A program made the translations under genes and the position numbers. A model generated the notes under the pieces. That model did not search any database, was not told the origin of the DNA, and was given only the letters and a program-made list of their open reading frames with translations. Below, in pieces: positions 10,751-33,999 of a DNA stretch of 64,000 nucleotides; the first letter of the stretch is position 1; every line of letters starts with the position of its first letter. The stretch comes from Arachidicoccus sp. BS20 (GTDB lineage: Bacteria; Bacteroidota; Bacteroidia; Chitinophagales; Chitinophagaceae), in NCBI RefSeq assembly GCF_001659705.1, contig NZ_CP015971.1, positions 1,426,001-1,490,000 of the forward strand, read 5' to 3'.

Positions 10751-10814
10751 AGAGATTATATTTAAATTGTAAAAAATAATATCCACTCTAAACAATAAGT
10801 ATGGCTATTAAATC

Positions 10815-10844
10815 AAGAGACTGCCTTCGTAAAAGCAGCCTCTT
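10815..10844. other. Stem-loop between truncated susD and the GH18 gene
   Basis: A 10-bp stem, AAGAGACTGC (10815-10824) with GCAGCCTCTT (10835-10844), has one A-C mismatch and a 10-base loop. There is no U tract on either side, so it is more likely an mRNA processing or stability element between the two genes than a terminator. Confidence 0.5.
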
Positions 10845-10853
10845 ATTGATTAT

Positions 10854-12190: not shown

Positions 12191-12313
12191 ATAAGTGAAA
12201 GCATATCTTACCAAAGGCGGAAAGCATAAGTCAAAAAGAGTTTTGTATGCGGTTTCACTTTCATACAAGGCTATTTCATACTTGAGTGTTTCTAATTGTT
12301 CGTTGTTCAGCAT
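12190..12313 (-). pseudogene. ECF sigma factor remnant (first ~41 codons)
   Basis: Too short for most gene finders. From ATG at 12313 the minus strand reads 41 codons before a stop at the junction. The latter part, LYESETAYKTLFDLCFPP then LVRYAFTY, is the start of sigma-70 region 2 as in Bacteroidota ECF sigma factors of SusC/SusD loci. The homology ends at about 12191, exactly where SusD homology begins in another frame. In intact loci the order is sigma, FecR, SusC, SusD, hydrolase; here the sigma 5' end is joined to the 3' part of SusD. Inference: one deletion of roughly 5-6 kb, by the usual size of the missing genes. Confidence 0.72.
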
Positions 12314-12388
12314 TACCTCTCGCGGCTTGAATAATTGAGCAAAATACAAATTTTCAAAGTATGTAGTATGATATTTACATTTTTTACT

Positions 12389-12418
12389 TTTGAAATGAAA
12401 CGATGTTATTTACTTTTG
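12389..12418 (+). promoter_or_regulatory. Bacteroidota-type promoter for the SDR gene
   Basis: TTTG at 12389-12392, 18 bases, then TACTTTTG at 12411-12418, matching the phylum's -33/-7 pattern TTTG-N19-TAnnTTTG. The SDR start codon is 20 bases further on, giving a short leader. Confidence 0.6.
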
Positions 12419-12437
12419 CTCATAATAAATTAATTCC

Positions 12438-13244: not shown

Positions 13245-13256
13245 ATTTTTGCGCAA

Positions 13257-14075
13257 ATGGCTATTGTAACGCTATCAACCGATATTGGAACTTATGATTT
13301 TATTACGGGCGCTTTCAAAGGTCAGTTGCTGTCGTTGCATCCTGCATTGCAAGTAGTGGATATATCGCACGATTTGTCTTCAAGTAATTTTGCGGAAGCA
13401 GCATACATTTGTCAGAATGCTTTTAAACATTTTCCCGGCGAAACCATTCACATTGTAATCGTGAATTTGTTTGAGTTTAAACCCACACATTTTCTCATCG
13501 CAAAATATAGAAGCCAATACATTCTTTGTCCGGACAACGGCATTCTTACAATGATATACAAACAAAAGCCTGCCGAAGTGTTTAAAGTAAACATTTCGCA
13601 TCAAGCGCCATTGAATACCTTACAGTATTTATCGGCGTTTGCGGCAGCGACGAGTAAATTGGTTTTAGGAAAATATCCTTTGCAAATAGGCGAAGAATTT
13701 ACAAATTTTACAGAGCGTTATCCTATGCGTCCGAGCTTTGGCGGCAACTGGCTGGAAGGACAAATTATATTTATAGACAAGTTTGAAAACGTGGTAGTGA
13801 ATATTTCCAAAGAAGAATTTGAAGAATACCGCGATGGAAGAAATTATAAAATATCTTTCGGCAGAAACAATATTATCGACCGCATTCAGGAGAATTATTC
13901 CACAGTTGCAAGTGAAGAATTTCTGGCACATTTTAATTCCGCAGGAATGCTTGAACTCTCTGTAAAAAACGGAAATCTTGCGAGCTTATTCGGCTTACAA
14001 GGTTATAACGAAGAAAATAGTTCTCAAAAAGCAAGAACGTGGTTTTATCAGTCTATCAGAATATTTTTTGAATAA
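13257..14075 (+). CDS. SAM hydroxide adenosyltransferase (SAM hydrolase) family protein
   Basis: A 272-residue protein of the DUF62/SAM-hydrolase fold. Family blocks: N-terminal VTLSTDIGTYDFITGAFKG (the TDFG-x-D-x-x-VG-x-KG block), VDISHDL, CPDNGILT and a C-terminal beta domain with FIDKFENVVVNI. Characterised relatives split S-adenosylmethionine to adenosine and methionine with an activated water; halogenases share the fold. The usual His-containing block HxxVVDPGVG is replaced here by HIVIVNLFEF, so the active-site Arg-His of the D-R-H triad is not obvious. Activity is therefore uncertain although the fold is clear. The stop codon overlaps the 34-bp repeat. Confidence 0.82.
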   Translation: MAIVTLSTDIGTYDFITGAFKGQLLSLHPALQVVDISHDLSSSNFAEAAYICQNAFKHFPGETIHIVIVNLFEFKPTHFLIAKYRSQYILCPDNGILTMIYKQKPAEVFKVNISHQAPLNTLQYLSAFAAATSKLVLGKYPLQIGEEFTNFTERYPMRPSFGGNWLEGQIIFIDKFENVVVNISKEEFEEYRDGRNYKISFGRNNIIDRIQENYSTVASEEFLAHFNSAGMLELSVKNGNLASLFGLQGYNEENSSQKARTWFYQSIRIFFE

Positions 14076-14107
14076 AGCCTCCCTAAATCCCTCCAAAGGA
14101 GGGACTT
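14074..14107. repeat. 34-bp dispersed repeat with CCCTCC/GGAGGG hairpin, copy 2
   Basis: Identical over 34 bases to 4464-4497, again starting within the stop codon of the upstream gene. Hairpin CCCTCC-AAA-GGAGGG at 14089-14103. Confidence 0.85.
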
Positions 14108-14133
14108 AGGAAAAAACGAGGAACACGTTTGCA

Positions 14134-14158
14134 CGTCATTCCCGCGCAGGCGGGAATC
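14134..14158. repeat. REP-like palindrome (CGTCATTCCCGC type)
   Basis: Perfect 8-bp stem ATTCCCGC (14138-14145) and GCGGGAAT (14150-14157) around GCAG. The wording CGTCATTCCCGC...GCGGGAATC is a very widespread bacterial extragenic palindrome (recollection). It sits 26 bases after the 34-bp repeat in the gap before lpxB, so two repeat families are stacked here. Confidence 0.7.
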
Positions 14159-14221
14159 TCGAATAACATTTGATTATTCATAGGCAATTAAACAGTTCTT
14201 CTATGGACTATTAACTAAAAA

Positions 14222-15340
14222 ATGAAATACTACATTATAGCAGGCGAAGCAAGCGGCGATTTGCACGGAAGCAATTTAATCAAAGAATTGCAACATTTCG
14301 ACCATGACTGTATTATTCGTTGCTGGGGCGGCGACAAAATGCAAGCCACAGGAGCCACGCTGGTAAAGCATTACAGAGATTTAGCGTTCATGGGTTTTGT
14401 GGAAGTTGCGATAAACCTGCGAACCATTTTAAAAAACCTTTCTTTCTGCAAAAACGATATTATCAGTTTCCAGCCCGACGTTTTAGTATTGATAGATTAT
14501 CCCGGTTTTAATTTGCGCATTGCAGAATGGGCAAAACAACAAAATATAAAAGTTGTTTATTACATTGCTCCTCAAGTTTGGGCTTGGAAAGAAAACCGTG
14601 TGCCCAAGATGATGCAAAGCATTGATAATATGCTCGTGATTCTTCCTTTTGAAAAAGATTATTTCAAAAATAAATTCGGCTGGAATGTTGATTACGTGGG
14701 GCATCCGCTTGTAAAAGTGATTGAAGATTTTAAAAATGAAAACATCAATCATTCAGCTTTAAGCGACAAAAAAATCATTGCTGTTTTACCCGGAAGCCGC
14801 AAACAGGAAGTGGCTAAAAAATTGCCGGTTATGTTACAAACGGCAAAGCATTTTCCCGAATACCAATTCATTGTTGCACAAGCTCCTTCGCTGGACGAAA
14901 GTTTTTATCAACCTTTTTTAAGCGATTACCCGAATGTTTCGATTGTAAAAAACCAAACCTATCTCCTGCTCTCAAACGCAGTCGCAGCAATGGTTACAAG
15001 CGGAACGGCAACTTTGGAAACAGCTTTATTTGGCGTGCCGGAAATTGTTTGTTACAAAGGAAGCAACATCAGTTATCAGATTGCGAAACGATTGATTAAA
15101 GTGAAATATATTTCGCTCGTGAATTTAATTATGGATAAATTGGTAGTGAAAGAGCTAATCCAAAACGATTTAACAGAAAATAATCTTGTAAAAGAATTAC
15201 GGCTTCTTTTGACCGACGAAGCCAAACAAATGCAGCTTAAAAACGATTATCAACAATTGAAAAACATCCTCTCTGCCGGAGGCAATGCTTCGGCAAATGC
15301 AGCTAAAGAAATTGTTGATTTTTATAAAAAAAGCAGGTAG
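14222..15340 (+). CDS. lpxB: Lipid-A-disaccharide synthase
   Basis: Joins UDP-2,3-diacylglucosamine and lipid X to make the lipid A disaccharide; a GT19 enzyme at the inner face of the inner membrane. The 372-residue length is normal. Family blocks: N-terminal IIAGEASGDLHGSNL, WGGDKMQATGATL, MGFVEV, DYPGFNLRIA, YYIAPQVWAWKENR, VGHPLVKV, LPGSRKQEV and the donor-site stretch VTSGTATLETALFGVPEIVCYK. The 146-bp gap upstream holds two repeats and no gene. Confidence 0.97.
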   Translation: MKYYIIAGEASGDLHGSNLIKELQHFDHDCIIRCWGGDKMQATGATLVKHYRDLAFMGFVEVAINLRTILKNLSFCKNDIISFQPDVLVLIDYPGFNLRIAEWAKQQNIKVVYYIAPQVWAWKENRVPKMMQSIDNMLVILPFEKDYFKNKFGWNVDYVGHPLVKVIEDFKNENINHSALSDKKIIAVLPGSRKQEVAKKLPVMLQTAKHFPEYQFIVAQAPSLDESFYQPFLSDYPNVSIVKNQTYLLLSNAVAAMVTSGTATLETALFGVPEIVCYKGSNISYQIAKRLIKVKYISLVNLIMDKLVVKELIQNDLTENNLVKELRLLLTDEAKQMQLKNDYQQLKNILSAGGNASANAAKEIVDFYKKSR

Positions 15341-20551: not shown

Positions 20552-20608
20552 TATCAATTCTATTGTACTTGCATTTGTATATGTTCAAGAGTATAATACC
20601 AATCAAAT

Positions 20609-20651
20609 CTTTAATAATAAAAGCCCGGTTTACGGGCTTTTATTATTAAAG
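20609..20651. terminator. Bidirectional terminator between glgC and the MutS-like gene
   Basis: A perfect 19-bp stem (20609-20627 with 20633-20651) around the loop GTTTA. The GC core AAGCCCG/CGGGCTT is flanked by A/T runs, so it works as a U-tract terminator in both directions. It separates two convergent operons. Confidence 0.9.
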
Positions 20652-20675
20652 ATTTATCTTTTGATTTTTTTATAT

Positions 20676-22001
20676 TCAACTTCCCAGCAATTCCAATATT
20701 CCTTCATTTTTTATAATCATCATTCCCTGACGGTCTTCGGTAATACCTTGCTGCATTTTGTATGTATAGCGCGGACGGTTGCCTTCCATTTCCGTAGGCA
20801 TATAGGCAAACTGTATATTTGGCGTGTCGCGCAAAGCTTCTCCTACTTCGATGATATGTGTAGATACGATAAACAAACATTCTTCGTATTCTGCAAAGGC
20901 TTCCGTTACCGCAAGCGTGCCGTCATAAGCGTCCTTCACATTGGTGCCTTTGAACAACTCATCGAACATCAGCAGCAGCCTCTGTCCGCTTGCGGCTGCT
21001 TCCGCAGCCTGCTTTACACGCACAACTTCCGCATAAAAATGACTGTAACCCAAATTGATATTATCCGCTACATTGATGGAACTATACAGACCTTCCCTTA
21101 CCGAGAACTTCATCTGCGTTGCCGCAACAGGAAAACCCATCTGTGCCAGGTAAAGATTAATGCCGACAGATTTCATTAAAGTAGATTTACCGGCCATATT
21201 GGCTCCCGTTAAAAACAATACATTATTTTTTCGGTTTAGCGATATGGCATTACCCACGGCATTATTGATACATGGATGATAAAGCCCTGCAGCTTCCAAC
21301 ATATTGTCCTGAGCCGGCAATGCCCGCGCATAGCTAAATCCTTTGTCGGCTGCCACACCGCCTACCGCGATATATACATCCAACTCGTAGATAAAAGCTA
21401 ATACTTCTTCCATTTCCTGACGGAGGCTGTTTTTTAGCAAGTGGTCATAATCAACCAGTGTCTTTACCGGAAGAGCCTTGTAAATATCTGTCTTGCGCAG
21501 CGCCGCCAACTTCCCCCCCGATAGAATGGAGTCTATATTTTTTATCTTCGGTTCGTAAACTCCTGCTGCAATTTCAGTGGACTGCATTGTTTGTAAGAAC
21601 CGGTAACATTTGTCCAGTGTTACAATCACGGATTGCAAGCCTTGTATCATTTTTTTGTAACGTTCGTCCCGGGCAAGCCATGAGAGCATTTTCTTGGTAA
21701 GGATATCTGTAAAAGAAAGCAGTTTGTTTTTACCTGTTCCCATATCAAGATAATCGCGCATTAAAATTAATTGCCGGACGTCGAACGGGAAACTAAGCCG
21801 GGCCAGTTCAAAAGAGCGAATAATGCTGCTCCGTTCATTGATAGCGGCGGCATCTTCCAGCGGGTGGTGGAACATATCATTCAGCAAACGCTCGCCGCCC
21901 GCTGTCTTTACCTTATTGAATAACCCGTACACCGAACCACTTTTAAATTTGCCCAACAGATTCAGTTCTTCCAGTGTCTGTTTGTCTGTATTAAAAACCA
22001 T
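20676..22001 (-). CDS. MutS-core ATPase (pair 2, distal gene)
   Basis: A 441-residue protein with a MutS core/lever region (residues 1-240, opening TDKQTLEELNLLGKF, SVYGLFNKVKTAGGERLL) and a domain V ATPase: P-loop TGANMAGKSTLMKS, Walker B LLLMFDELFKGTNVKDA (with the normal Asp-Glu) and the switch VSTHIIEVGEAL. It lacks the mismatch-reading domain I and the connector, so it cannot be a standard repair MutS. The closest look-alike is its tandem neighbour, and both are unlike pair 1 at 5.7-8.7 kb, which have Asn in Walker B. Last gene of a co-directional block after SusC/SusD and an ABC transporter. Function unknown. Confidence 0.85.
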   Translation of the reverse strand: MVFNTDKQTLEELNLLGKFKSGSVYGLFNKVKTAGGERLLNDMFHHPLEDAAAINERSSIIRSFELARLSFPFDVRQLILMRDYLDMGTGKNKLLSFTDILTKKMLSWLARDERYKKMIQGLQSVIVTLDKCYRFLQTMQSTEIAAGVYEPKIKNIDSILSGGKLAALRKTDIYKALPVKTLVDYDHLLKNSLRQEMEEVLAFIYELDVYIAVGGVAADKGFSYARALPAQDNMLEAAGLYHPCINNAVGNAISLNRKNNVLFLTGANMAGKSTLMKSVGINLYLAQMGFPVAATQMKFSVREGLYSSINVADNINLGYSHFYAEVVRVKQAAEAAASGQRLLLMFDELFKGTNVKDAYDGTLAVTEAFAEYEECLFIVSTHIIEVGEALRDTPNIQFAYMPTEMEGNRPRYTYKMQQGITEDRQGMMIIKNEGILELLGS

Positions 22002-22064
22002 CTTGAATGAGTTTGTAAATAATGAATTTGAAATAATTGAGTACGATGTTCACAGGTTTATTGT

Positions 22065-23369
22065 TTACTCTGCAACTCTTTTCTTTTTACCGTTTTTAAG
22101 TGTTTCTAATATGCCTTCGTTACGGATGATGAGCATACCGTGGCGGTCGTCGGTAATACCCTTTTCCAGTGTGTAGGTATATTCGGGCACATGCCCGTTC
22201 ATGCGCGTAGGCAGGTAACGGAAAAATACCGAGGGCTGCTTTTTAAGCTCTTCCCCAGCTTCCACAATATGCGAGGAAATGATGAACAGGCTGTTCTTCT
22301 TACCTGCAAAAGCGCCTGTTACGGCCACTGTGCCTTCCTGCGCATCTTTCACATTCGTACCGCGAAACAATTCGTCAAAGACTACAAATAAAGATTTGCC
22401 CTGATTAAGTTCCATCGCTACTTTTTTTACCCGCAACACTTCGTTGTAAAAATGGCTGGCGCCGATGCCCAAATTGTCCGGCAAATTAATCGTTGTATAA
22501 ATACCGTCCAGCACGGAAAATTCCATCGCTTTTGCAGCAACAGGAAAGCCTATGTGCGCTACGTACACCGCCGTGCTCACAGAGCGTAAAAAGGTGGACT
22601 TGCCTGCCATGTTCGCTCCGGTAAGAAAAACAACATTGCTGTCCGCACTCATGTCTATAGAATTAGCTACCGGATTTTTTAATTCCGGATGATACACGCC
22701 TTCAAGCCGCAAAATGCACTGTCCTTTTTCCAATGCTTTCGGAAAAACAAATTTCCGTTCCTTTGCCAGCGCAGCTATCGACAGATATACGTCTAAGTAA
22801 TAAATGTGCCTGAGCAACCGGTTTATCTTTTTATATTGCTGTTCTCTGAAAAGCGTATCATAAGCAGCAATTGCTGCATACGACGGTTTGCTCTTCGGGT
22901 TCTCTTTGAGAACGGGCAAAAAATCTGCATCTTCCACAAGAGTTTTAATCATATCCCTCTCTTTTGCGTACCCAGCAACACCGGCAATATCATTTTGCTC
23001 TATAAATATCTTAATACCTTGGATTAACTGTATGGTAGCTGTTACCCCCTGCTGTATTTCTTTCTCTCCTAATACTGACCGATGTGCTGCTGTGTTTGCC
23101 TGCTCATCTTTATCTGCGAGATATTTCTCCGTTGTATCAAACAAGGAAGCATTAAACGGGAAAGAAAGGGATTGTCCCGAAAAGTATGCGATAATGCCGG
23201 CGCGCCGGTTGATTTCCCCTTTATCCGAGAGCGGGTTCTCGAACATCTCTTTTAACACAGCTTCGCCACCGCGCGTATGTGTACGGTTATATAGCTCATA
23301 GATGCTGCTGCCGTTGCGATGGCTGAATATTCCTAAATCGTCTATCGTCTGTTTATCTGTTATGAACAC
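22065..23369 (-). CDS. MutS-core ATPase (pair 2, proximal gene)
   Basis: About 434 residues if started at the GTG at 23369 (VFITDKQTIDDLGIF), which aligns with the MVFNTDKQTLEELNLL start of its paralogue downstream. The frame is open to 23507, but that longer version overlaps the upstream permease gene by 67 bases. Domains: MutS-like lever region, then domain V ATPase with TGANMAGKSTFLRS, LFVVFDELFRGTNVKDA and FIISSHIVEAGEEL. The tail ends Lys-Lys-Lys-Arg. No domain I. The two pair-2 genes are 63 bp apart and clearly arose by duplication. Confidence 0.84.
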   Translation of the reverse strand: MFITDKQTIDDLGIFSHRNGSSIYELYNRTHTRGGEAVLKEMFENPLSDKGEINRRAGIIAYFSGQSLSFPFNASLFDTTEKYLADKDEQANTAAHRSVLGEKEIQQGVTATIQLIQGIKIFIEQNDIAGVAGYAKERDMIKTLVEDADFLPVLKENPKSKPSYAAIAAYDTLFREQQYKKINRLLRHIYYLDVYLSIAALAKERKFVFPKALEKGQCILRLEGVYHPELKNPVANSIDMSADSNVVFLTGANMAGKSTFLRSVSTAVYVAHIGFPVAAKAMEFSVLDGIYTTINLPDNLGIGASHFYNEVLRVKKVAMELNQGKSLFVVFDELFRGTNVKDAQEGTVAVTGAFAGKKNSLFIISSHIVEAGEELKKQPSVFFRYLPTRMNGHVPEYTYTLEKGITDDRHGMLIIRNEGILETLKNGKKKRVAE

Positions 23370-23440
23370 GAGTAATAAGTTATTAAGTGATACATTTTGC
23401 AATACACAACACGCGGAGATGGCATTCACACCATCGCCGT

Positions 23441-25894
23441 TTACTTTCTTTTCCTGCGAATCAATAATAATGAACCAAAAAGGAGCAATAATGCAGGAAG
23501 TACCCAAATATAAATAATCTTCAACACGCCCACGCCGTCGGTACTGATACGCACACGATTATCTTTTGAATCCGGACGGGAAGTATCTATCGGAAACTGC
23601 CCGTTGTCCAGCCAACTGAATAAGGCGGTCGCAAAATAAAAATTCGATACTCGAGGATTAGTTCGCAGCAATTCCAAATTGCCCATAAAATCTGCATCAC
23701 CACTGACAATGATACGCTGCTCTTTACCGTTAATTTTACGACTAAGCGCCAAAGCCGTGGTATATTTAACAGTTGTAACACCCAGTCGCTTTACAGTATC
23801 TACTTGTATTTTTTTTATCGCACCGGCAGTTTTGAGCGTACCAACGGAAGATGGAGATACCGACAAAGCCATACCACCACCACTTGCGGCAACAGCAATT
23901 AGCCCCGACGAATTTGTGTTATTCGTTGCACTGTCATTATCCACCAAGTCTAAATCGGGGTTACGGGCAAAGGTATTATATGCTTTACCCATCACCGTTT
24001 CCAATAACGGCTGCACGTTAAAACCTATTGTATCTACATACGTCAGTCCTGAAACACCGTTCATAGAAACAGGAAGTGTATCTATAGAGGGTTTTTCGAG
24101 AATTTTAGCAAAACTTATCGCTGTCTTTGTCATGTATGATTGTACCAATGAAGGCGGATAATCATCGCTTTTCTGTTTCAGCATACCGTTTATCATTTGG
24201 ACACCAAGCTGATGAATGACGGGATTAATAAAACTTTGCCTGCCGGGTTCTCCGGCAATGAGCAGATTTCCACCTTTAGCAATATATCGTTCTATTTTAT
24301 TAATAGCAGCAGGACTCAGCATAGTTATCGGATCTGCAATGACCAATGCAGTAATACTGTCCGGAATCGCTTGTATATCCAAATCCACAGTATCCACATC
24401 GAAGCCCTGGTTGATGAGCGCATAGCGGAAGGTTTTTTCGTAAGTCAGTGTCCTGTATGCCCTGTCGCCCTTTTTCTCCGTGCTGCGCTCACCATTGCCA
24501 GTTGCAAAAGCTATCGTCGGCATTTTAGCCTGTAACAACCTTTTGAAGGCTGCGGACACTTCAGTCTCACTTGGCCACTGCATCTGGTCATTAAACACCC
24601 TTAAAAAAGTGCTGTGTCCCCTGTATTTTAACTGCATCACAAAACGGTTCAGTTCCGGTTTAAGGTCAATCATCTGATGTATCTGCTCAGGTGTTTTAAA
24701 ATCCGATAAGCTAATATCCGATGCCTTGGCACGCTGCTCCACTATTTGCTGCATCGTTTTACCCTTATAAAAACTGAACATGTTATACCCGTTAGCGTAA
24801 GCACTATCATAATAACGCACATACCGGAATTTTATGTCCGGCTTGAATCTTAGATAAGGCTCCCACTTTGACAGATAACTATTACGTTCTTCCGGCTCTC
24901 CGAAATAATAATAATTATCCAGAAAGTTAGCATAAGCAGTTATTTCCAGTGTAGAATCGCCCAACTCATGAATAATTTTCTGGGCATTGGGTGTTAAGGT
25001 ATTGTCTTTATTAGCCGTAGTATCCAAGTAACCAATAAGGGCAGGGCGAGAACTAAGATAGCCGATAGCCAATACAGAAACAATAATTACCGCATAGCGG
25101 GCTATTTTTACGGACAGCGGCTTTGATTCTCTGCTGCCTTTAAGTTTAAAGATGGTAAAACCAAGGAACATGCACACTATAATAATAAAGTATATCACAT
25201 CTTTTGTGGTAATCAGCCCCTGAAGCATATGCTGCGTACGACCATTAAGCGAAAGAAAATAGGTCAAATCCCTGATAAAATCAATACCTTGCCAAAGCCT
25301 GCCGATATAACTAAGAATGCCGATGATAATAAAAGTACCGATGGCTGCCACTACCTGGTAACTGGTCAGTGATGACATAAACAAACCGATAGCTGAATAA
25401 GCACATAACAGAAGAAAGAAACCCAAAACAGCTGACCAAAGCAGCCCTGCATCCGCAGATTTAATATTGAATATTCCTGATACCATAAAAATACTTACCA
25501 CCGCTACCAATACCAGGCTGTATATCATCATAGCCATATACTTACCAAGAACTATCTCTCTTACCTTTACCGGAGAAGAATATAACAAACTTATCGTACC
25601 GCCGTTAATTTCCCGGCTGATAAGTCCCATTGTCAGCAAGGGAATATATAGGTACAGGTTCTGCATTACATTGGAAAATAAACCTCCCCAAGGACTGTCA
25701 AATATTTGAAATGTTAACCGGGTCATATATTGCAGGCTTATACCACCCATCTCTTGTTCCGTAGCATAAGAATGCAGCATATTGGTATATGTCAATGCAC
25801 ACTGTACTAAAAAGGCAATGGTTAAGAACCATGCAATAGGAGAATAAAACAGATTGCGGAGTTCCGTTCGCGCTATTTTGAATATAAGTTTCAT
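23441..25894 (-). CDS. Fused ABC-2 permease / GldG-like protein
   Basis: An 817-residue fusion. Residues 1-240 are an ABC-2 permease with six membrane helices, like GldF (LFYSPIAWFLTIAFLVQ, SREINGGTISLLYSSPV, GKYMAMMIYSL). After two further helices at about 245-300, a large soluble region resembles GldG/ABC_transp_aux (LTPNAQKIIHEL, DNYYYFGEPEERN, ALVIADPITMLSPAAINKIERYI, GGNLLIAGEPG). It ends with a membrane helix and Arg-Arg-Lys-Arg-Lys. GldF and GldG are separate in gliding bacteria; here one chain should do both jobs. Partner of the ATPase gene 82 bp upstream. The exported or imported substrate is unknown. Confidence 0.86.
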   Translation of the reverse strand: MKLIFKIARTELRNLFYSPIAWFLTIAFLVQCALTYTNMLHSYATEQEMGGISLQYMTRLTFQIFDSPWGGLFSNVMQNLYLYIPLLTMGLISREINGGTISLLYSSPVKVREIVLGKYMAMMIYSLVLVAVVSIFMVSGIFNIKSADAGLLWSAVLGFFLLLCAYSAIGLFMSSLTSYQVVAAIGTFIIIGILSYIGRLWQGIDFIRDLTYFLSLNGRTQHMLQGLITTKDVIYFIIIVCMFLGFTIFKLKGSRESKPLSVKIARYAVIIVSVLAIGYLSSRPALIGYLDTTANKDNTLTPNAQKIIHELGDSTLEITAYANFLDNYYYFGEPEERNSYLSKWEPYLRFKPDIKFRYVRYYDSAYANGYNMFSFYKGKTMQQIVEQRAKASDISLSDFKTPEQIHQMIDLKPELNRFVMQLKYRGHSTFLRVFNDQMQWPSETEVSAAFKRLLQAKMPTIAFATGNGERSTEKKGDRAYRTLTYEKTFRYALINQGFDVDTVDLDIQAIPDSITALVIADPITMLSPAAINKIERYIAKGGNLLIAGEPGRQSFINPVIHQLGVQMINGMLKQKSDDYPPSLVQSYMTKTAISFAKILEKPSIDTLPVSMNGVSGLTYVDTIGFNVQPLLETVMGKAYNTFARNPDLDLVDNDSATNNTNSSGLIAVAASGGGMALSVSPSSVGTLKTAGAIKKIQVDTVKRLGVTTVKYTTALALSRKINGKEQRIIVSGDADFMGNLELLRTNPRVSNFYFATALFSWLDNGQFPIDTSRPDSKDNRVRISTDGVGVLKIIYIWVLPALLLLFGSLLLIRRKRK

Positions 25895-25976
25895 TTTGTA
25901 TTTTTTATTATTTTCTGAGAACAGATGAAATTCTTTGTTGTTATTGGACTATATATTTTCAATTTTATTATCTTTT

Positions 25977-26909
25977 TTATTTTGTTGAAAAGGAAGACAA
26001 TTGCTTGAAAATTTCATCGAGTGCCGTTTTGTCGAGACTTATTTCCCGCAGATGCCACCCGTTTTGAACACTCGCTTCAATAATCCTTTCGGTTATTTCC
26101 CCATCGCCTGTGAAGTACAGCCGCAATTGCTTTTCGGTCAGGAAGTCCACTTTATCAATGCCGCTTATTTCCAGCAATTGTGCTTCCGAAGGCGGGTTTT
26201 CCATTCTGACTAATACACTATGTGGCTCCACATAATTATTAAATGCATCCATCGTGTCGGAAAATACAATCCTGCCTTGTTCAATCATCTTGATTTCCTT
26301 ACATAAGAGTTGTATCTCTGTCAGTATATGAGAAGAGAAAATGACCGCATGCTCTTTAGCAATATCTTTAATCAACGCTCTTACTTCAATAATCTGGTTC
26401 GGGTCAAGTCCGTTGGTCGGTTCGTCCAATACCACCAATTTAGGTTTGTGGATAATTGCCTGTGCAATACCCACGCGCTGGCGGTACCCGCCGGAGAGAT
26501 TTTTAATTAGCCGGCTGCTGTAATGCGTAATGCCGCACCTTTCTTTAGCTTCTTCCAGTGCCGGCTTGATTTTATCTTTGTCCATTTTTCGAAGATCTGC
26601 CGTGTAGGTGAGGTATTCATCTACGGTCAGGTCTGTATATAACGGCGGGTTCTGCGGCAGGAAGCCGATGATTTTTTTGGCTTCTTCCGGTGCTTCACGG
26701 GTATTGATGCCGTTAATGAAGACATTGCCTTCTGTCTGGTTGAGTACACCGCACACAATGTTCATAGTGGTGGACTTGCCGGCTCCGTTGGAGCCTAACA
26801 ACCCCACAATGCCCGTATTGTCTATCTCCATATTAATATCCCGTATCGCCCAGTGCGTTCCACTGTAACGGTGGGATAAATTCTTAATACTCAAAATTGA
26901 ATTTTCCAT
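25977..26909 (-). CDS. ABC transporter ATP-binding protein (GldA-like)
   Basis: A 310-residue ABC ATPase. Walker A GLLGSNGAGKSTTM (about residues 36-49), Q-loop GFLPQNPPLY, signature NLSGGYRQRVGIA, Walker B KLVVLDEPTNGLDP, and H-loop FSSHILTE are all intact. The 80-residue C-terminal extension (RMENPPSEAQLLEIS...) is typical of GldA/CcmA-like exporters. It should energise the permease encoded next. The gene starts 93 bp after the SusD stop on the same strand, so it may share the SusC/SusD transcript. Confidence 0.93.
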   Translation of the reverse strand: MENSILSIKNLSHRYSGTHWAIRDINMEIDNTGIVGLLGSNGAGKSTTMNIVCGVLNQTEGNVFINGINTREAPEEAKKIIGFLPQNPPLYTDLTVDEYLTYTADLRKMDKDKIKPALEEAKERCGITHYSSRLIKNLSGGYRQRVGIAQAIIHKPKLVVLDEPTNGLDPNQIIEVRALIKDIAKEHAVIFSSHILTEIQLLCKEIKMIEQGRIVFSDTMDAFNNYVEPHSVLVRMENPPSEAQLLEISGIDKVDFLTEKQLRLYFTGDGEITERIIEASVQNGWHLREISLDKTALDEIFKQLSSFSTK

Positions 26910-27002
26910 ATTTAATTTTATTAAAATAAAAGCTTTATTCTATATATGCATCTTACCAGGAAGTTGTGATTTAAAATACCGTTACTATCAGAAATGTATT
27001 GG

Positions 27003-28427
27003 TTAATGATAGCCGGGATTTTGCGTAAGTGTATTGTTTAATGATATTTGTGTCTGCGGTATCGGATATAAAGCTGCATTTTCTGTCCAACCATCTAATA
27101 CGGCAGGTGCTTGTGTGCTCGCCGGGTATTTGGTATCTGCGCTAGTCCTGTTCAGGTCAAACCACCGGCTGCCAAACTCGGTAAACATTTCTGTCCGTCT
27201 CTCTTTTCTAATAGCAGCTAAGACAGCAGATTGGGATGTTGGGTCAGCCGAAGTGCCGGGCAATCCCGCTCTCGTGCGAATTATATTTATATCCATTACG
27301 GCCTGGCTAAGATTATTCAATTGTGCAGCGGCTTCGGCACGGATCAGGATTATATCGGCATACCGTAGCAACATATAATCCGTTGCAGGTGTAGTCGGAT
27401 ATCTATCCTTATATTTGGCAGGATAATATACATTCTGACTATTTACTACATTTACACCCAACCAAGCTACCTTGCGCAGGTCATTAGCTTCAAATTGATC
27501 TAACAAAGAGTCCGTTATTACATAGTTTGGCGTCGTTGTATTAGAATAAGGTAAAAAATTTCCCGCTTCACTCGACCCCTGGGCAATGTTTAGGATCGGT
27601 ACCTGCCAAACCGCTTCGTTACTCCCATCCAAAAACACGTTATTGAGGTTAGATAACAAACTAAAATCGCCGGATTTAATCACCGAATCCGCTTCGTTAT
27701 ACGCAGCCTGCCATTGTCCTAAGTATAAATGAACCTTTGCCAGCAATGCCGTTGCAGTATAAAGGTTAGGGCGCATATGTCCTGCGGAAGGGAAAGTTGC
27801 CGGCAACTTTTTAACGGCATCCTCAAGGTCTGCTAAGATTTGTGTATAAACACTATCAGCGGTGGCTCTGGGTAAACGTGCATTGGTGGTATAGTCAGTT
27901 GTAGTAACCAAAGGAACACCGCCAAATAAGTTAACCATGTTAAAATAACAAAAGGCGCGTACAAATTCCATCTCGCCTGTAATTTGTCGGATGAATGAAG
28001 CCGATAAATTAGGGTTGTCCTTTATATTCGCCAGTATATCATTTACCTGGTATATCTCCTTATAATGCGCTACCCATATTGAATTAACTTCACTGTTTAC
28101 CGGTGTCACATTATAACTGTAAAATTGTCCAACATCTCCGTAACCGGCAGCATAATTTATTTCACGCCCCGAAAGCGAGGTAGCAAAAGTAAAACTCCCA
28201 TCCTGATAAGGAAGCCCCGCCCCGCCGGGCGTTAAAGAATATGCGCCTGCAACTGTTGTCATAGCCGTAGCACTGTCTGCAAATGCCTGTTGCCTGGTGA
28301 TATTTGTCGGCGGATTGCCCGGTATCTGTATTAATTTTTTACAGGAGACTAAAATACTAAAAATAAGTAACAAGCTTCCTACCGGTATTTTATATTTATC
28401 AGAAAAATTTTTTTCCATGATCATCAT
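27003..28427 (-). CDS. SusD/RagB-family outer-membrane lipoprotein
   Basis: A 474-residue lipoprotein with a signal peptide and lipobox SILVSC, so lipid-anchored on the outer membrane. SusD features: the N-terminal helical block (ITRQQAFADSATAMTTVAGAY), RQITGEMEFVRAFCYFNMVNLFGGVPLV, TPR-like helices in the middle, and a C-terminal RadB/SusD stretch (YMLLRYADIILIRAEAAAQLNNLSQAVMDINIIRTRAGLPGT, EFGSRWFDLNRT). It pairs with the SusC encoded three bases upstream. The ligand is unknown; no glycosidase or peptidase gene is linked. Confidence 0.93.
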   Translation of the reverse strand: MMIMEKNFSDKYKIPVGSLLLIFSILVSCKKLIQIPGNPPTNITRQQAFADSATAMTTVAGAYSLTPGGAGLPYQDGSFTFATSLSGREINYAAGYGDVGQFYSYNVTPVNSEVNSIWVAHYKEIYQVNDILANIKDNPNLSASFIRQITGEMEFVRAFCYFNMVNLFGGVPLVTTTDYTTNARLPRATADSVYTQILADLEDAVKKLPATFPSAGHMRPNLYTATALLAKVHLYLGQWQAAYNEADSVIKSGDFSLLSNLNNVFLDGSNEAVWQVPILNIAQGSSEAGNFLPYSNTTTPNYVITDSLLDQFEANDLRKVAWLGVNVVNSQNVYYPAKYKDRYPTTPATDYMLLRYADIILIRAEAAAQLNNLSQAVMDINIIRTRAGLPGTSADPTSQSAVLAAIRKERRTEMFTEFGSRWFDLNRTSADTKYPASTQAPAVLDGWTENAALYPIPQTQISLNNTLTQNPGYH

Positions 28428-28430
28428 TAT

Positions 28431-31400
28431 TTAAAATTTGAGGTTTAAACCAAAAGCTATGATACGTTGCAAAGGAAAGGACAGAAAATCACCCGGCTGT
28501 TCCGGATCACCAAATTTGTAATTGGTGAAAGTGAACAGGTTTTGTACATTACAAAAAATACTGCCACCTTTAATAGCGATCTTTTTCATCCAGGCATCTG
28601 GAAAGGCATAAGACAATGCTGCCGTTTTGACCCTCAGATAAGTATCGTTGGTATATGCCCCGGTTGATGACTGAAACGCGTATACACCTGCAGTGTATTG
28701 CGAATTATAACTGGTTACCAGCCGTTGAAGTGTGGCGTGCGTATCGCCGGGTCCTGTCCAATATTTCCCAAGCACATAAGCAGGCAAATTATCTTCATAA
28801 CCCGGAGGATTATTGTAGAGAGAGGAAATAGCATTAGGCTGCATACTGCTTTGAAACTGACAGAATATATAAAGACTTAAACGTTTATACGTGAAAGTAT
28901 TGCCAAAACCGCCCATATAATTAATTTCCCTGTTGCCTATTACCACTTCATCGCCACCCTGTGAAACCGGTTTATAGTTAGGATTGGAAGTAAGAGATCC
29001 GTCAGCTGCATAGTACTCAAACATGCCTGTAGTAGGATTTACATCCTTATATCTGTAACCAAATACTACCGAAGTCGGCTGGCCGATAACATACTGTGTG
29101 GCATAAGAAGAAGAAGCTAAATTAGGAAAGGCAAGCAATTTATTGCGATTGAATGTTAAGTTAAAACTGGTCGTCCAGTTGAAATTTTTACTTTTTACGT
29201 TCGTGGATGTTACTGTAAATTCAAATCCTTTGTTTTGAACAGTAGAATTTTGATTTTCAAACACAGTAGCAAAACCGGCTTGTGCCGCCAACGGATAAGC
29301 AACCAGTTGATTAGACTGGCGGTCCCTATAATAAGTAGCATTTAACAATAAGCGATCTTTAAAAAAACCGAGATCGATCGCTATGTTTAACTCTTTTGTT
29401 GTTGCCCATTGAAAATCCGGGTTATACAGGTTCTTTGGGATATTTTGCCTGATGCCTTGGAAAGGCGTAGTATTAGTATATGGATAAGGGCCGTACAATG
29501 CCTGGAATTGATAAGATTGAGAAGCGTCACTTCCTGTTGTGCCATAACTTCCGGTAAGCTTACCATAACTCATAAAAGGTAAGGCATTTTTAAAAGCTTT
29601 TTCCTCAGAAAATATCCAGCCGGCACCTACAGAACCAAAGCTACCGAACTGCCTGCCGGGGCCAAAATTACTTGAACCGTCCCGCCTGCCGCTAAGCTCT
29701 ATAATATACTTTTGATCATAAATATATTTCAGGCGGCCAAAAGCCGCTACATATTTGTTGAGGTCTTGATTATCAAAAACAGAAGTTGTGGCGGCTCCGT
29801 CAACGGAGCCAAGAAAAGCATCGTTTGAATAACCGTAAGCCTGGGTCTGGGAAGAATAAGTTGTAGTCTTTTGGTAAGTGCCTCCCAGTAAGGCTGTTAA
29901 TGTTCCCTTCCCAAGCACTGTATGATAATTTATCTGCGGCTCCACATTAAGCGCCTGATTGACAGTATTCGCAAATGCTGCACTTATATTGGGCGGCTCA
30001 TATATATCCGGTGCCTGCGAAGTTGAAGGGTTTATAGAATGTTCTGTATTCGTATTACGATTATAGCCTACATTGCCGCCAATGGTTAAGCCCTTGATTA
30101 TTTCATAATTCAGGCTTAAGGAAGTATTAAAATTATACGCTTGGAGAGTAGTGGGTTGTTTTAGGCCAGCGTAAAGATTATCATACATCTCCACTCCTTT
30201 GTAACTCCATATTAAATTACCATTCCCGTCTATCTGATCGGGAGCATTCGGAGGTAACGTTACGAACGAACTACCGCCGAAACCAGCAGAACGATTCTGA
30301 TCGTAGGAAAAGTCAGTAATGAAAGTCAGATTAAACTTTCTATTTGCCGAAGCGCTGGTTAGCGCACTGTGTAAGCTATATCTCTGATCTGCAAAGTCCC
30401 CCGGATAATTGAAGTCCGAGCGTGTATAACCACCGGAAATAATAAATGTGTTATTAGCGGACCCGCCTGAAACGGTAGCGTGTACATCTGTATTGTGGGT
30501 CGAATTTCCCTGAACGATTTTTTGCCAGTTGGTATATTTATTTTGATCATAAATGGTCAGGTCAGGCGCATAAGCGCCGGAATAATCGTTCGGATTATCA
30601 TTTGGTATTATACTGTCTGCAGCGAAAGCCTCTTTTCTTAACTGAAGATACTGTTGCGTATTTAAAAATTGTATCGGCCTGGCAACCTGGTTAAGCTGTG
30701 TATTTACAGTTAAATCGACAGATGTTCTGCCGGCTTTTCCTTTTTTTGTCGTAATCAAAACAACGCCGTTAGCGCCTTTCGAACCATAAATAGCAGTCGC
30801 GTCCGCATCCCTGAGTATAGTAATGCTTTCTATATCATGCGGGTCAATGCCGTTAAAAGCACCAATACCGGTTGCCTGATTCAATCCTCCGTTAAAAGAT
30901 TGCGCATTGGCAAGATTGCTTAATTGACTGATATTGGCATTTCCCGAAGCGAAAGGCACACCGTCCACAATAAAATAAGGCTGGTCATACGGCTTAAAAC
31001 TAAGCCTATCAGTAGCTAATGAATTTTGTCCTCGTATCTGCACCAATGTTGTTGAGCCGGGCACGCCGTTCTTAGCAATAACGGACAATCCGGGCACCTG
31101 TCCTTCCAACGCAAGTAAAGGATTGGTTACCGGCTGTTTTTCAATAGCAGAGGCATCTACCGTAGAAATTGCCCCTACACTAAAGCGCCTGGAAGTAGTA
31201 CCATAAGCTTCTACAATTGTTTTGTCAAGTTCGTTATCACTGGCACTTAACATGATGTAAAGATAATTTGTCCTTCCTCTAACAACAATCCTTTGGGTAA
31301 GATACCCTACATAAGATATAACAAGCGTGTCTCCTATAGAAATATTATCTATTTCAAATTCTCCCTTATCATTTGCATGAGTTTCAAATCCTGTTCCCTG

Positions 31401-31925
31401 CACACGAATGGTAGCGCCATCCAACGGGTTACCCACAGAATCTTTCACAAAACCCCGAATGACAAATTGTTGAGGAATTGCTGCGCCTGCATAAAATGCC
31501 GATGGATTTGCGGGTTTTGTTATTTCGACAGTTTTGTTTTTTATATAGACCACTTTACCGTGTATCTGGTAAGTAAGCGGCAAGCCATTAATACATGCTT
31601 TTACAGCTTCATTTATATCTGCATTATGAATAGACAATGTTATCGGCGATAAACCTTCAACAGCATTTTGCTGCCATAAAAAAGAGTAGCCTGTCTGCTG
31701 TCTTATTTGTTCAAATGCGGTTTCTACCGAAGCATTTTTAAGTGTAAGACTTACTTTTTGTGAATAGCTTTTAGCGCTAACAGTGATAGTGGAAATGAGG
31801 ATTAAGACGGCAGTCAAACGCATAATCTTCCTGATTTTAGTACAGACGCGCCCGAACGGGTACGCCGGTTTGTAGAAAGTAATATTTATCATACTTTTGT
31901 ACGGTTTGGATTTTGGAATAGTCAT
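28431..31925 (-). CDS. SusC/RagA-family TonB-dependent receptor with STN domain
   Basis: A 1164-residue outer-membrane channel. In order: long signal region to about residue 53, a secretin/TonB short N-terminal (STN) domain (SLTLKNASVETAFEQIRQQTG), a carboxypeptidase-regulatory-like domain (IRGFVKDSVGNPLDGATIRV), a plug (LLALEGQVPGLSVIAKNG, YFIVDGVPF, ESITILRDADATAIYGSKG), and a 22-strand barrel ending in Leu-Lys-Phe. The STN domain implies signal transfer to FecR in the periplasm, and the FecR and sigma genes lie directly upstream. The start at ATG 31925 is better than the TTG at 31928. Substrate unknown. Confidence 0.94.
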   Translation of the reverse strand: MTIPKSKPYKSMINITFYKPAYPFGRVCTKIRKIMRLTAVLILISTITVSAKSYSQKVSLTLKNASVETAFEQIRQQTGYSFLWQQNAVEGLSPITLSIHNADINEAVKACINGLPLTYQIHGKVVYIKNKTVEITKPANPSAFYAGAAIPQQFVIRGFVKDSVGNPLDGATIRVQGTGFETHANDKGEFEIDNISIGDTLVISYVGYLTQRIVVRGRTNYLYIMLSASDNELDKTIVEAYGTTSRRFSVGAISTVDASAIEKQPVTNPLLALEGQVPGLSVIAKNGVPGSTTLVQIRGQNSLATDRLSFKPYDQPYFIVDGVPFASGNANISQLSNLANAQSFNGGLNQATGIGAFNGIDPHDIESITILRDADATAIYGSKGANGVVLITTKKGKAGRTSVDLTVNTQLNQVARPIQFLNTQQYLQLRKEAFAADSIIPNDNPNDYSGAYAPDLTIYDQNKYTNWQKIVQGNSTHNTDVHATVSGGSANNTFIISGGYTRSDFNYPGDFADQRYSLHSALTSASANRKFNLTFITDFSYDQNRSAGFGGSSFVTLPPNAPDQIDGNGNLIWSYKGVEMYDNLYAGLKQPTTLQAYNFNTSLSLNYEIIKGLTIGGNVGYNRNTNTEHSINPSTSQAPDIYEPPNISAAFANTVNQALNVEPQINYHTVLGKGTLTALLGGTYQKTTTYSSQTQAYGYSNDAFLGSVDGAATTSVFDNQDLNKYVAAFGRLKYIYDQKYIIELSGRRDGSSNFGPGRQFGSFGSVGAGWIFSEEKAFKNALPFMSYGKLTGSYGTTGSDASQSYQFQALYGPYPYTNTTPFQGIRQNIPKNLYNPDFQWATTKELNIAIDLGFFKDRLLLNATYYRDRQSNQLVAYPLAAQAGFATVFENQNSTVQNKGFEFTVTSTNVKSKNFNWTTSFNLTFNRNKLLAFPNLASSSYATQYVIGQPTSVVFGYRYKDVNPTTGMFEYYAADGSLTSNPNYKPVSQGGDEVVIGNREINYMGGFGNTFTYKRLSLYIFCQFQSSMQPNAISSLYNNPPGYEDNLPAYVLGKYWTGPGDTHATLQRLVTSYNSQYTAGVYAFQSSTGAYTNDTYLRVKTAALSYAFPDAWMKKIAIKGGSIFCNVQNLFTFTNYKFGDPEQPGDFLSFPLQRIIAFGLNLKF

Positions 31926-32059
31926 CAAATAAGTAGTGGTGGTTTTTCTGATTGCCCAACGATTATACGGGTTTCGGGGTCCAGCCGAAATCCGTTTTTT
32001 TATGGTGCAACGTTTTTCCTTCTTATGTTTTTTTCATTGCATATAATTTTTAAGGTTTA

Positions 32060-33226
32060 CTAATGAGATAATACAGTTACTGTTTTCCCGTCAAAGCGGG
32101 TATGTATGCCGCCTGCATCCAATGCAGATAAAATATCCGATAAATTAGCATTACTGTTGAGCATACCGCCAAAGTTGCCTTCGGGCATATTGCCTTCAAA
32201 CTGTACATCTACATTGTACCAGCGCGATAGCCGGTTCATGAACTCGCGAACACTGTTGTTGTTCATCAACAGGAAACCTCTTGTCCATGCCACAATATCG
32301 TCGGTTTTTACCTTTTCGACCTGTATATTTGCGTTGCTGTTACCTACAATTGCTTGCTGTCCCGGTTGCAGTATTACACTTTGAGCACCTTTAACCACAC
32401 GTACTGCGCCTTCGAGCAAAGTGCTTTTTACAACCGGCTCATCATCATAAGCACTGATGTCGAAATGCGTACCAATGTCTTCTATTGCTTGCCCGCGCAC
32501 GTTTACCCTAAACGGCTTTGCAGCATCATGCACCACTTCAAAATAAGTTTCCCCCGTTACAGATACTTCTCGTGTATTGCCTGTAAATGCAACAGGATAA
32601 GTAATAGATGAAGCGGCATTCAGCCATACCTTTGTACCATCCGGCAGCACAATTTTATACTGTCTTGCCCTTGGCGTAGCCAAAGTGTTATAAGCCGGTT
32701 TAACCACACCGGCATTAGTTCCATTATAACTAAGCTGTCCATTGACACTCACAATGCGTACGCTGCCTTGCTGCGCAACTTGCTTGCGCCCCATACTCGT
32801 ACTATCCAGAACAACCTTGCTACCATCGGCAAGCGTGAGTACCGCACCATCGTGTCCCGGTGGAACATCTTTATATACAATTAAACTTTGCCTTTCGTCA
32901 GTATTATTTTTAAAAAAATAATACTTTAACCCAATGCCCAGCCCGATAACAAGCACCGCCGCAGCTGCCCAACGATAAAATTGAAACTTCTTTTTGTTTC
33001 CAACCGATATGTGTACAGTTCCGGTTTTTGCTTCTATGTTGTCTAACATAGTATCGGCAAGTTGTTGCTTGCCTGCCGCAAACCCGGGCGGCAGTTCAAC
33101 GGGATACGCTCCGTGGTCATTATACCATGCTTCCAGCTCTCCCAGCTCTGCATCTGAAATAATGCCGCGTACCCATTTATCGGCTAACGCGCGGTAATAA
33201 TCTTTATCAAAATTGTTATTTGCCAT
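32060..33226 (-). CDS. FecR-family anti-sigma factor
   Basis: A 388-residue inner-membrane protein. The cytoplasmic N-terminus (residues 1-85) binds the sigma factor (YYRALADKWVRGIISDAELGEL), one membrane helix lies at about 86-105 (WAAAAVLVIGLGIGLKYYFF), and a periplasmic FecR domain follows (TPRARQYKIVLPDGTKVWLN, VTGETYFEV, FRVNVRGQAIEDIGTHFDI). The final 80 residues (NNNSVREFMNRLSRWYNVDV) form the DUF4974-type domain that contacts the STN domain of SusC. It should hold the sigma factor inactive until SusC binds its ligand. Confidence 0.93.
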   Translation of the reverse strand: MANNNFDKDYYRALADKWVRGIISDAELGELEAWYNDHGAYPVELPPGFAAGKQQLADTMLDNIEAKTGTVHISVGNKKKFQFYRWAAAAVLVIGLGIGLKYYFFKNNTDERQSLIVYKDVPPGHDGAVLTLADGSKVVLDSTSMGRKQVAQQGSVRIVSVNGQLSYNGTNAGVVKPAYNTLATPRARQYKIVLPDGTKVWLNAASSITYPVAFTGNTREVSVTGETYFEVVHDAAKPFRVNVRGQAIEDIGTHFDISAYDDEPVVKSTLLEGAVRVVKGAQSVILQPGQQAIVGNSNANIQVEKVKTDDIVAWTRGFLLMNNNSVREFMNRLSRWYNVDVQFEGNMPEGNFGGMLNSNANLSDILSALDAGGIHTRFDGKTVTVLSH

Positions 33227-33432
33227 AAAAAATATATCGGCTGTATTTAATTAGTCATTAAAAAAATGCGTAGCACTTACAAAACCTTAATATTTTTTTT
33301 AAAATAATATAAAAATTTATTTAAAAGCTTAGATATGCAATGAGGAAATTTTACCTCTTAATCGAGACAGAGGTTTAAACAAAACCAGATGACGGGAAGA
33401 TTATCCTTTGTTCTGTCGTATAAAACACGTAA

Positions 33433-33999
33433 TTAAAAAAGGGAAAAAAAGATGGAACGCAAAGAAGCTTTCAGCACCTTAAGCGCTTTGTGTATATGGC
33501 TTTCAACCGTTTTTTCGGAAAGAGACAAACGTGCCGCAATTTCTTTATTCGACAAGTCTTCTTCTCTGCTCAGGCGAAAAATCATTTGGCAACGGGCAGG
33601 CAAAGCAGCTGTTGCAAGTTCCACCTTTTGCATCAGTTCGTCGAGAGACAGCCGGCTTTCAATCTCCGGCAGCACAAACGCATCTTCGGCAACTGTAACC
33701 GCCTTTTGAGTTTTAAGCCGGTACTCTTTTGCCAGAAAACTATATACGCGCAACTTAACGGCAGCCGCCAGATAAGTTTTAATGGAATAATTAATAGTCA
33801 GTTCTGCACGCCTGTTCCATACAGAAATAAAAATGTCCTGTATTATTTCTTTAGCATCATCGGGGCTATCGGTTTTGTTAACAGCGAGTGAAAACATGAT
33901 ATCCCAATAACGGTAATAAATTTCCGAGAAAGCCGCTTCGTCGCTTTCTTTCAGCAATTCCAGTAATTGCACATCGCTGTATTCGGAGTAGGAAGGCAT
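33433..33999 (-). CDS. ECF-type RNA polymerase sigma factor
   Basis: A 188-residue sigma-70 relative with region 2 (AAFSEIYYRYWDIMFSLAVN, DAKEIIQDIFISVWNRR) and region 4 (LPARCQMIFRLSREEDLSNKEIAARLSLSEKTVESHIHKAL in two blocks). It belongs to the Bacteroidota ECF group linked to FecR and SusC. It probably drives transcription of fecR, susC, susD and perhaps the downstream ABC and MutS-like genes. A 206-bp gene-free gap separates it from fecR; I saw only weak stem-loops there and no clear operator. Confidence 0.93.
   Translation of the reverse strand: MPSYSEYSDVQLLELLKESDEAAFSEIYYRYWDIMFSLAVNKTDSPDDAKEIIQDIFISVWNRRAELTINYSIKTYLAAAVKLRVYSFLAKEYRLKTQKAVTVAEDAFVLPEIESRLSLDELMQKVELATAALPARCQMIFRLSREEDLSNKEIAARLSLSEKTVESHIHKALKVLKASLRSIFFSLF

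Follow-up and report, generated by a model that had tools for sequence, protein, structure and literature searches.

A 64,000-nucleotide stretch of the genome of Arachidicoccus sp. BS20 (Bacteroidota; Chitinophagaceae; contig NZ_CP015971.1 of assembly GCF_001659705.1, forward-strand positions 1,426,001 to 1,490,000), hereafter the window and numbered from its first letter, was analysed in this study with regard to a SusC/SusD locus that continues into genes for a Gld-type ATP-binding cassette (ABC) transporter and two MutS-core ATPases, referred to as MutA and MutB. Judged from reading frames and family matches, eight genes between positions 33999 and 20676, all on the minus strand, form an operon-like block (Table 1). 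An earlier note on this DNA had recorded eight co-directional genes at these places, gaps of 3-93 bp from susC to the last gene and intact ATPase motifs, all of which we confirmed: the gaps are 3 bp between SusC and SusD, 93 bp between SusD and GldA, 82 bp between GldA and GldFG, 71 bp between GldFG and MutA and 63 bp between MutA and MutB, and those further upstream are wider (FecR to SusC 131 bp, sigma factor to FecR 206 bp).

Table 1. Genes and terminator-like site of the block (window positions)
Feature	Positions	Strand	Family match or remark
Extracytoplasmic function (ECF) sigma factor	33433..33999	-	TIGR02985, 126.4 bits, equal to its cut-off
FecR anti-sigma factor	32060..33226	-	FecR and FecR_C
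SusC/RagA TonB-linked outer-membrane protein, STN signalling domain and Plug	28431..31928	-	TIGR04056, 658 bits (cut-off 368.25)
SusD/RagB surface lipoprotein	27003..28427	-	PF07980, 111.6 bits (cut-off 23.1)
GldA-like ABC ATPase	25977..26909	-	TIGR03522, 268 bits, below its cut-off of 402.6
Fused GldF/GldG-like ABC-2 permease (GldFG)	23441..25894	-	PF12679 and PF09822
MutA, MutS-core ATPase, domains III and V only	22065..23369	-	PF05192 and PF00488
MutB, MutS-core ATPase, partner of MutA	20676..22001	-	PF05192 and PF00488 (family matches only)
Terminator-like hairpin, 20 pairs	20608..20652	both strands listed	between MutB and convergent glgC

For the gaps that separate the genes between SusC and MutB, the list of terminator-like sites has no minus-strand entry, and the hairpin directly 3' of MutB is the strongest such site listed for the stretch. 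A sigma-70 promoter scan returned 36 matches against a shuffle mean of 35.3 and thus no excess, while the TTTG/TAnnTTTG pattern occurs eight times in the window against 6.1 expected, with none within the gaps. The longest open reading frame (ORF) of MutA opens at a TTG (23507) inside GldFG; because of its homology to paralogues, the start was placed at the ATG at 23369.

According to the family matches, the surface-signalling set appears complete, comprising an ECF sigma factor, FecR and an STN-bearing receptor. SusC and SusD, which both exceed their family cut-offs, are encoded by adjacent genes, and the window SusD weakly resembles RagB (E 2.5e-05). The Walker A, signature, Walker B and H-loop patterns of GldA are intact. 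GldFG has six hydrophobic stretches up to residue 282, followed by approximately 500 residues that are probably periplasmic and by one further hydrophobic stretch. All three Gld likenesses miss the gliding equivalog cut-offs, with 268.3 of 402.6 bits for GldA, 80.9 of 288.5 for GldF and 21.5 of 389.85 for GldG.

Recurrence of the gene order

The BS20 genome is a single contig of 3.49 Mb with 12 matches to PF00488 and exactly four to PF09822, and every PF09822 match (4/4) lies directly upstream of a MutS pair. Two of the other copies are complete from FecR through SusC, SusD, GldA, GldFG and MutA to MutB, namely locus L009, which has one extra gene after SusD, and locus L011. The fourth copy, L010, is broken and retains just the tail of GldFG together with the MutS pair; its neighbours are transposase, relaxase and coupling-protein genes. 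By local alignment, the window and L009 are 69% identical in the ABC ATPase, 50% in GldFG and 51-53% in the MutS proteins, compared with 28% in SusC (over 495 residues) and 29% in SusD; between the window and L011, SusC is 47% and SusD 43% identical. Similar effector genes can therefore go with dissimilar receptors, although this does not apply to every pair. The MutA-MutB regions of L010 (5930-8717) and L011 (5797-8584) are 99.57% identical over 2788 bp, which suggests recent gene conversion or duplication between two distant cassettes. A MutS_V protein of another type (L012, 4924-6420; 498 amino acids) is encoded near a trigger factor gene.

Across 98 genomes of the family, a MutS-pair query separated two score classes, one above 520 bits (11 genomes) and one of 208-344 bits that represents a paralogue, and GldFG and the cassette-type MutS occur in the same 11 of the 98 genomes. 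In a phylum-wide sample of 395 genomes, with four candidates scored per genome, cassette-type MutS was found in three, so it seems to be rare outside certain groups. The lower-scoring paralogue, of approximately 440 amino acids and mostly one per genome, is present in most sampled family genomes (L113 from 6132 onward, L114-L126); in 13 of 14 loci inspected (two members Pfam-tested) it adjoins an amidohydrolase-cluster gene and not SusCD.

A scan of named genomes yielded at least 581 confirmed loci, of which the best 80 were compared; 13 of these come from Pseudoflavitalea rhizosphaerae, and the loci are accordingly not independent. In the alignment that served as search profile, the first row lacks the last 46 residues of MutA. 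Among the hosts of the loci are Chitinophaga, Pseudoflavitalea, Niastella, Niabella, Pedobacter, Mucilaginibacter and Sphingobacterium. The gene immediately after MutA is MutB in 71 of the 80 loci (median gap -4 bp), and the two are fused in five (L092, L098, L106, L107 and L112); altogether, MutB or a fused MutB half comes after MutA in 78 loci, and the other two are cut by contig ends. At two loci, a TlpA/ResA-like thiol-disulfide gene that overlaps the end of MutA lies between MutA and MutB (L051, 11332-12486; L061, 11268-12380). Of the 78 loci with upstream sequence, 75 have GldFG immediately before MutA. The three exceptions are L046, where two ORFs intervene, and L104 (contig identity inferred from coordinates) and L108, which are permuted, with MutAB first and GldFG further on, beyond the fetched stretch. 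All of SusC, SusD, GldA and GldFG are found upstream on the same strand in 69 of the 74 loci with more than 7.5 kb of upstream sequence (exceptions: L042, L058, which is cut, L068, L104 and L108), and the gap between SusD and GldA measures 21-138 bp in the 16 loci without an insert.

The genome of P. rhizosphaerae contains 36 GldFG matches and, among 51 MutS matches, 49 cassette-type hits, which make up 22 pairs and five singles, some of them partial at contig ends. For 21 of the 22 pairs there is a GldFG within 4 kb; the remaining pair resembles the permuted loci, with a GldFG approximately 10 kb onward on its own strand. Four of the 36 GldFG genes have no MutS within 4 kb. Because the arrangement is repeated in the same genome and in many species, against only about 41 SusD genes in the 3.49 Mb of BS20 (42 matches, two of which are pieces of one frame), it goes beyond chance, and a chance association of neighbours was ruled out by this recurrence. 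The earlier note had left room for accidentally neighbouring operons, in which case the MutS pair would normally be found without SusC/SusD or the ABC genes; the gene-order comparison revealed the reverse. Its suggestion of a possible undescribed system stands, given an association that recurs in 69 of 74 loci and in the same 11 of 98 genomes.

SusCD-GldAFG loci without MutAB were also identified. In a class-wide sample of 395 genomes (two candidates scored per genome), GldFG was present in seven, five of which (G450, G466, G788, G116 and G099) are without cassette-type MutAB; the GldFG loci inspected in those five (L142-L144, L146 and L147) adjoin SusCD and GldA. Within the family, L132 and L133 consist of SusCD and GldA-GldFG with no MutAB. 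Going by these loci, SusCD-GldAFG is the wider core and MutAB an extra that is found chiefly in this family and in certain genera of Sphingobacteriaceae type. In another locus, L131, three similar large genes in a row (6923-14999; 914, 917 and at least 855 amino acids) lie next to a sigma-GldA-GldFG unit without MutAB.

Linked genes, modules and the MutS-core pair

Genes behind the MutS genes were compared with other neighbours. The test set held 66 co-directional genes, at most three per locus for L033-L112 (chained within 120 bp) and at most two for L009-L032 (within 250 bp), from which GldFG, MutA and MutB hits had been removed first; two of the genes lie between MutA and MutB (L051 and L061). 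The control consisted of the first 66, in locus order, of 90 genes drawn from a pool of 294, one of them inside a cassette (L046). Counts rest on 25 of 44 test families and 25 of 81 control families, rarer families being uncounted in both. Among the families listed, 31 matches from the 66 test genes were to peptidases (20 S41, seven M16, two trypsin-like, one S9 and one Met-zincin), ten to Thioredoxin and one to a glycoside hydrolase (GH39), compared with one Met-zincin in the listed families of the 66 control neighbours. Five peptidase or thiol-enzyme proteins inspected by eye begin with signal-peptide-like or lipoprotein-like stretches. Between SusD and GldA, at least one further ORF is present in 56 of 72 loci; among the inserts are additional sigma factors, PKD_2, DUF4843 and Peptidase_Mx1 relatives, and a family with 42 members, one of which was tested and has a sub-threshold DUF4397 match. 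No PDB sequence relative was found at the thresholds used for the GldFG profile, a DUF4843 protein or a PKD_2 lipoprotein.

The expectation of the earlier note that SusC/SusD loci end in glycosidases or peptidases thus holds for many relatives with S41, M16, S9 or trypsin-like peptidases, but not for the window copy. The paralogous copy L011 has an M16 peptidase gene 261 bp after MutB. In the window copy, MutB is followed instead by the terminator-like site and the convergent glgC, and the copy has neither a downstream peptidase or thiol gene nor an extra ORF between SusD and GldA.

Distances between proteins were correlated over the 79 unique of 90 complete cassettes, with 120 within-genome pairs, 91 of them from P. 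rhizosphaerae, and with genomes assigned by record title; the correlations are descriptive. The closest pairs, for all pairs and within genomes respectively, are SusC-SusD (.94 and.94), MutA-MutB (.91 and.93) and GldA-GldFG (.90 and.80), followed by MutA-GldA (.74 and.69) and MutA-GldFG (.75 and.54), compared with.54 and.17 for GldFG-SusC. By these protein distances, the receptor genes and the ABC genes clearly appear to be separate modules. MutAB lie between the two, mostly nearer the ABC genes, and likely belong to the ABC module, although this is not settled. In a tree, 85 MutA proteins or N-terminal halves form one clade (support 0.238) and 85 MutB proteins or C-terminal halves another (0.946), and the six fused MutA-MutB forms do not make up one clade; the rooting is uncertain, the 14 outgroup sequences not being monophyletic.

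The only MutS domains matched in MutA and MutB are MutS_III and MutS_V. A confident structural model of the window MutA (predicted local distance difference test, pLDDT, 90.5; alignment of 58 sequences) matches, starting at its own first residue, the stretch 266-788 of E. coli MutS (1e3m: Z 34.6, 393 residues, 3.7 A), is approximately 95 residues shorter than the matching MutS stretch and contains no strand of at least three residues before residue 211. In E. coli MutS, we take domain III to start at about residue 267 and the clamp domain to span about residues 444-503. According to the model, MutS domains I, II and IV, which hold the mismatch, connector and clamp parts, are missing from the window MutA. 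A prediction for a fused MutA-MutB, made without an alignment, reached a pLDDT of only 36.8 and was unusable. All 79 MutA and all 79 MutB proteins retain the Walker A and Walker B patterns, and the GldA proteins of all 79 cassettes retain their ABC motifs. The domain loss together with the kept ATPase motifs argues against MutS-like gripping of DNA and for a working ATPase pair.

Both proteins also fall below the cut-offs of the described MutS types, namely mutS1 (641.7 bits; MutB 102.4 and MutA 103.9), mutS2 (400 bits; 75.9 and 63.6) and the KamC model NF052383 (300 bits; 109.4 and 109.1), and no match to the Smr nuclease domain is listed in their family scan. A role as DNA mismatch repair MutS was ruled out by the domain loss and these sub-threshold scores. 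The calculated isoelectric points have medians of 7.3 (MutA) and 6.8 (MutB), within a range of 5.7-9.2. The window contains a second adjacent pair of MutS domain V genes on the plus strand (6403-7143 and 7144-8718; 246 and 524 amino acids), below the MutS, MutS2 and KamC cut-offs and near genes for two YfcE-like phosphodiesterases, a pyrophosphatase and an enolase; its assignment to KamBC of lysine fermentation was rejected because of the score and these neighbours.

Proposed function and comparison with known systems

SusC/SusD pairs are TonB-dependent importers of the outer membrane, and the relay from STN domain through FecR to sigma factor serves induction. With a probability of about 0.5, we consider the block to be a single sigma/FecR-induced transcription unit that takes up and processes a peptide or protein from outside the cell, with the Gld-type ABC transporter and MutAB as its partner in a role not involving DNA; the ligand, the direction of transport and the role of MutAB are those that we infer. 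From what is known of these families, SusD and SusC would bind the ligand and bring it through the outer membrane by TonB-driven import, and the STN domain of SusC would signal through FecR to the sigma factor and switch the operon on. In many relatives, the secreted peptidase and/or thiol-disulfide protein found linked in the same operon may then cut or reduce the ligand outside the cytoplasm. The GldA-GldFG complex, with its large periplasmic domain, might handle the product at the inner membrane, where import or extraction from the membrane seems likelier than secretion. MutA and MutB could form a cytoplasmic heterodimeric ATPase that acts as a mechanical or regulatory partner of the ABC complex or of the substrate rather than as a sensor of DNA mismatches, a role suggested by gene linkage, by natural fusions and by the loss of domains, with co-evolution as a weaker indication. 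Tentatively, and with the odds somewhat against it, MutA-MutB might even belong to a new, transporter-linked class of MutS-fold motors. Such a motor would be a heterodimeric ABC-class ATPase that no longer has the domains for gripping DNA and is dedicated to a GldAFG-type complex as its gate or second engine, and GldAFG-MutAB would form one effector module for many exchangeable SusCD receptors.

Several observations weigh against uptake and processing by such a unit. The copy in the window encodes no peptidase. MutAB are absent from the similar loci L132, L133, L142-L144, L146 and L147, so the core can do without them, and the 15 kb covered for L131 contain GldA-GldFG but neither SusCD nor MutAB. 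No GldFG lies within 4 kb of one MutS pair (of 22) and of three single MutS hits (of five) in P. rhizosphaerae; two of those three singles are at contig starts. The signs of co-evolution between MutAB and the ABC genes are mixed, since MutA also correlates with SusC (.60 over all pairs,.38 within genomes) and SusD (.57 and.46), and in the 91 P. rhizosphaerae pairs MutA-GldFG (.44) is below MutA-SusD (.53) and MutA-SusC (.47), with MutA-GldA at.66. Moreover, ABC-2 type permeases are mostly exporters, so the inner-membrane step could run outwards. In gliding bacteria, GldAFG is described in a passage of one paper as having no clear function, though it appears critical for gliding (PMC10202324).

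The cassette could alternatively defend against antimicrobial peptides, with the receptor sensing a toxic peptide, secreted peptidases destroying it, the Gld-type ABC transporter expelling it or extracting it from the inner membrane and MutAB as a helper. The ABC-2 permease domain, the inducible sigma/FecR control, the peptidases and thiol enzymes nearby and the very high copy number with diverse receptors would all suit this role, and the ABC ATPase also matches drrA (186.8 bits) and galliderm_ABC (175.6 bits), both below cut-off. However, SusC/SusD pairs import nutrients in every described case known to us, and the import of a toxin would be odd; furthermore, a PADLOC scan of six window proteins and one lipoprotein (sigma factor and FecR left out) gave ATPase-domain matches only, with nine ATPase models for GldA (best mad3, E 3.7e-27), one for MutA (PtuA, E 0.00063) and none for the other proteins scanned. 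We regard defence as rather unlikely. Much less probable still is the import or handling of nucleic acid, which the earlier note had proposed as one possible target of MutS-fold proteins in the last step. MutA and MutB do belong to the MutS family, but the window MutA is without mismatch and connector domains and its model without a clamp, many linked genes encode peptidases or thioredoxin-like proteins, no nuclease family is among those listed for the linked genes (25 of 44 families), and the near-neutral isoelectric points are weak evidence in the same direction.

The likeness to GldA, GldF and GldG might point to an accessory of gliding motility or type IX secretion, derived from GldAFG and carrying SusCD as passengers. 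Since all three proteins score below the curated gliding-protein cut-offs, up to 36 GldFG genes occur per genome and the identified linked genes are receptors, peptidases and thiol enzymes, this role of the cassette appears highly improbable. That SusCD and GldAFG-MutAB are two independent operons, adjacent by accident, we find barely credible: the 93-bp gap between SusD and GldA, the partly independent evolution of receptor and ABC genes, the permuted loci (L026 with L130, L104 and L108) and the lack of SusCD upstream (L042 and L068) or in the stretch seen (L131) would agree with such a split, whereas the arrangement recurs in many species with short SusD-GldA gaps in the insert-free loci, no terminator-like site is listed in the SusD-GldA gap, and the GldFG loci inspected outside the family (L127 and L142-L147) also lie beside SusCD.

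If uptake and processing by one such unit is correct, MutS-fold ATPases would be placed in transport. Bacteroidota genomes encode many SusCD importers (about 41 SusD genes in BS20), but for most of these little is known about what becomes of the cargo once it reaches the inner membrane. In the cassette, a SusCD receptor is linked with one particular ABC complex of the inner membrane and, among relatives, with secreted peptidases, so that ligand, processing and inner-membrane step become testable in one operon. It also provides a second setting for working out the function of Gld-type ABC complexes, and 36 GldFG matches and 49 MutS hits in one species suggest that the cassette likely matters to such bacteria.

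Compared with known systems, the cassette shares the SusC barrel, SusD lid and TonB-dependent import with RagAB and other peptide-importing SusCD pairs; we know of no ABC transporter or MutS-like gene in RagAB loci. It shares the ATPase, the ABC-2 permease domain and the PF09822 domain with the GldAFG of gliding Flavobacterium but differs in the fusion of GldF to GldG, the scores below equivalog cut-offs and the gene context. With MutS, MutS2 and KamC-type proteins, MutA and MutB have the fold of domains III and V and intact ATPase motifs in common, whereas MutA is predicted to be without domains I, II and IV, both proteins score below the cut-offs, and they constitute two paralogous groups that occur as pairs or fusions in 78 of the 80 loci, with the remaining two truncated. 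In the open-licence PMC literature, we found no description of SusCD with GldAFG and MutS-like ATPases, nor did searches via the parts (KamBC, SusCD and peptides, Fus, GldAFG, lanthipeptides) reveal one.

The nearest described principle is the protease-associated import of Fus systems (Pectobacterium FusA/FusC, E. coli YddB/PqqL), in which a TonB-dependent receptor encoded with a periplasmic protease, often of family M16, serves to import and cut a protein (PMC6793856). MutS, SusD and "ABC transporter" are absent from the main text of that paper, and SusC and Bacteroides occur only in one supporting-figure legend, which treats SusC as another highly divergent family (PMC6793856); the receptor of the cassette belongs to the SusC family. 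FusA homologues were reported there in Proteobacteria (PMC6793856), whereas the cassette combines SusC/SusD and sigma/FecR with several unrelated peptidase families, a GldAFG-type ABC transporter and MutAB. Judged from gene order and family matches, it seems to be a conserved cassette, often in several copies, of some Bacteroidota, an apparently undescribed combination that builds on known SusCD loci and protease-associated import.

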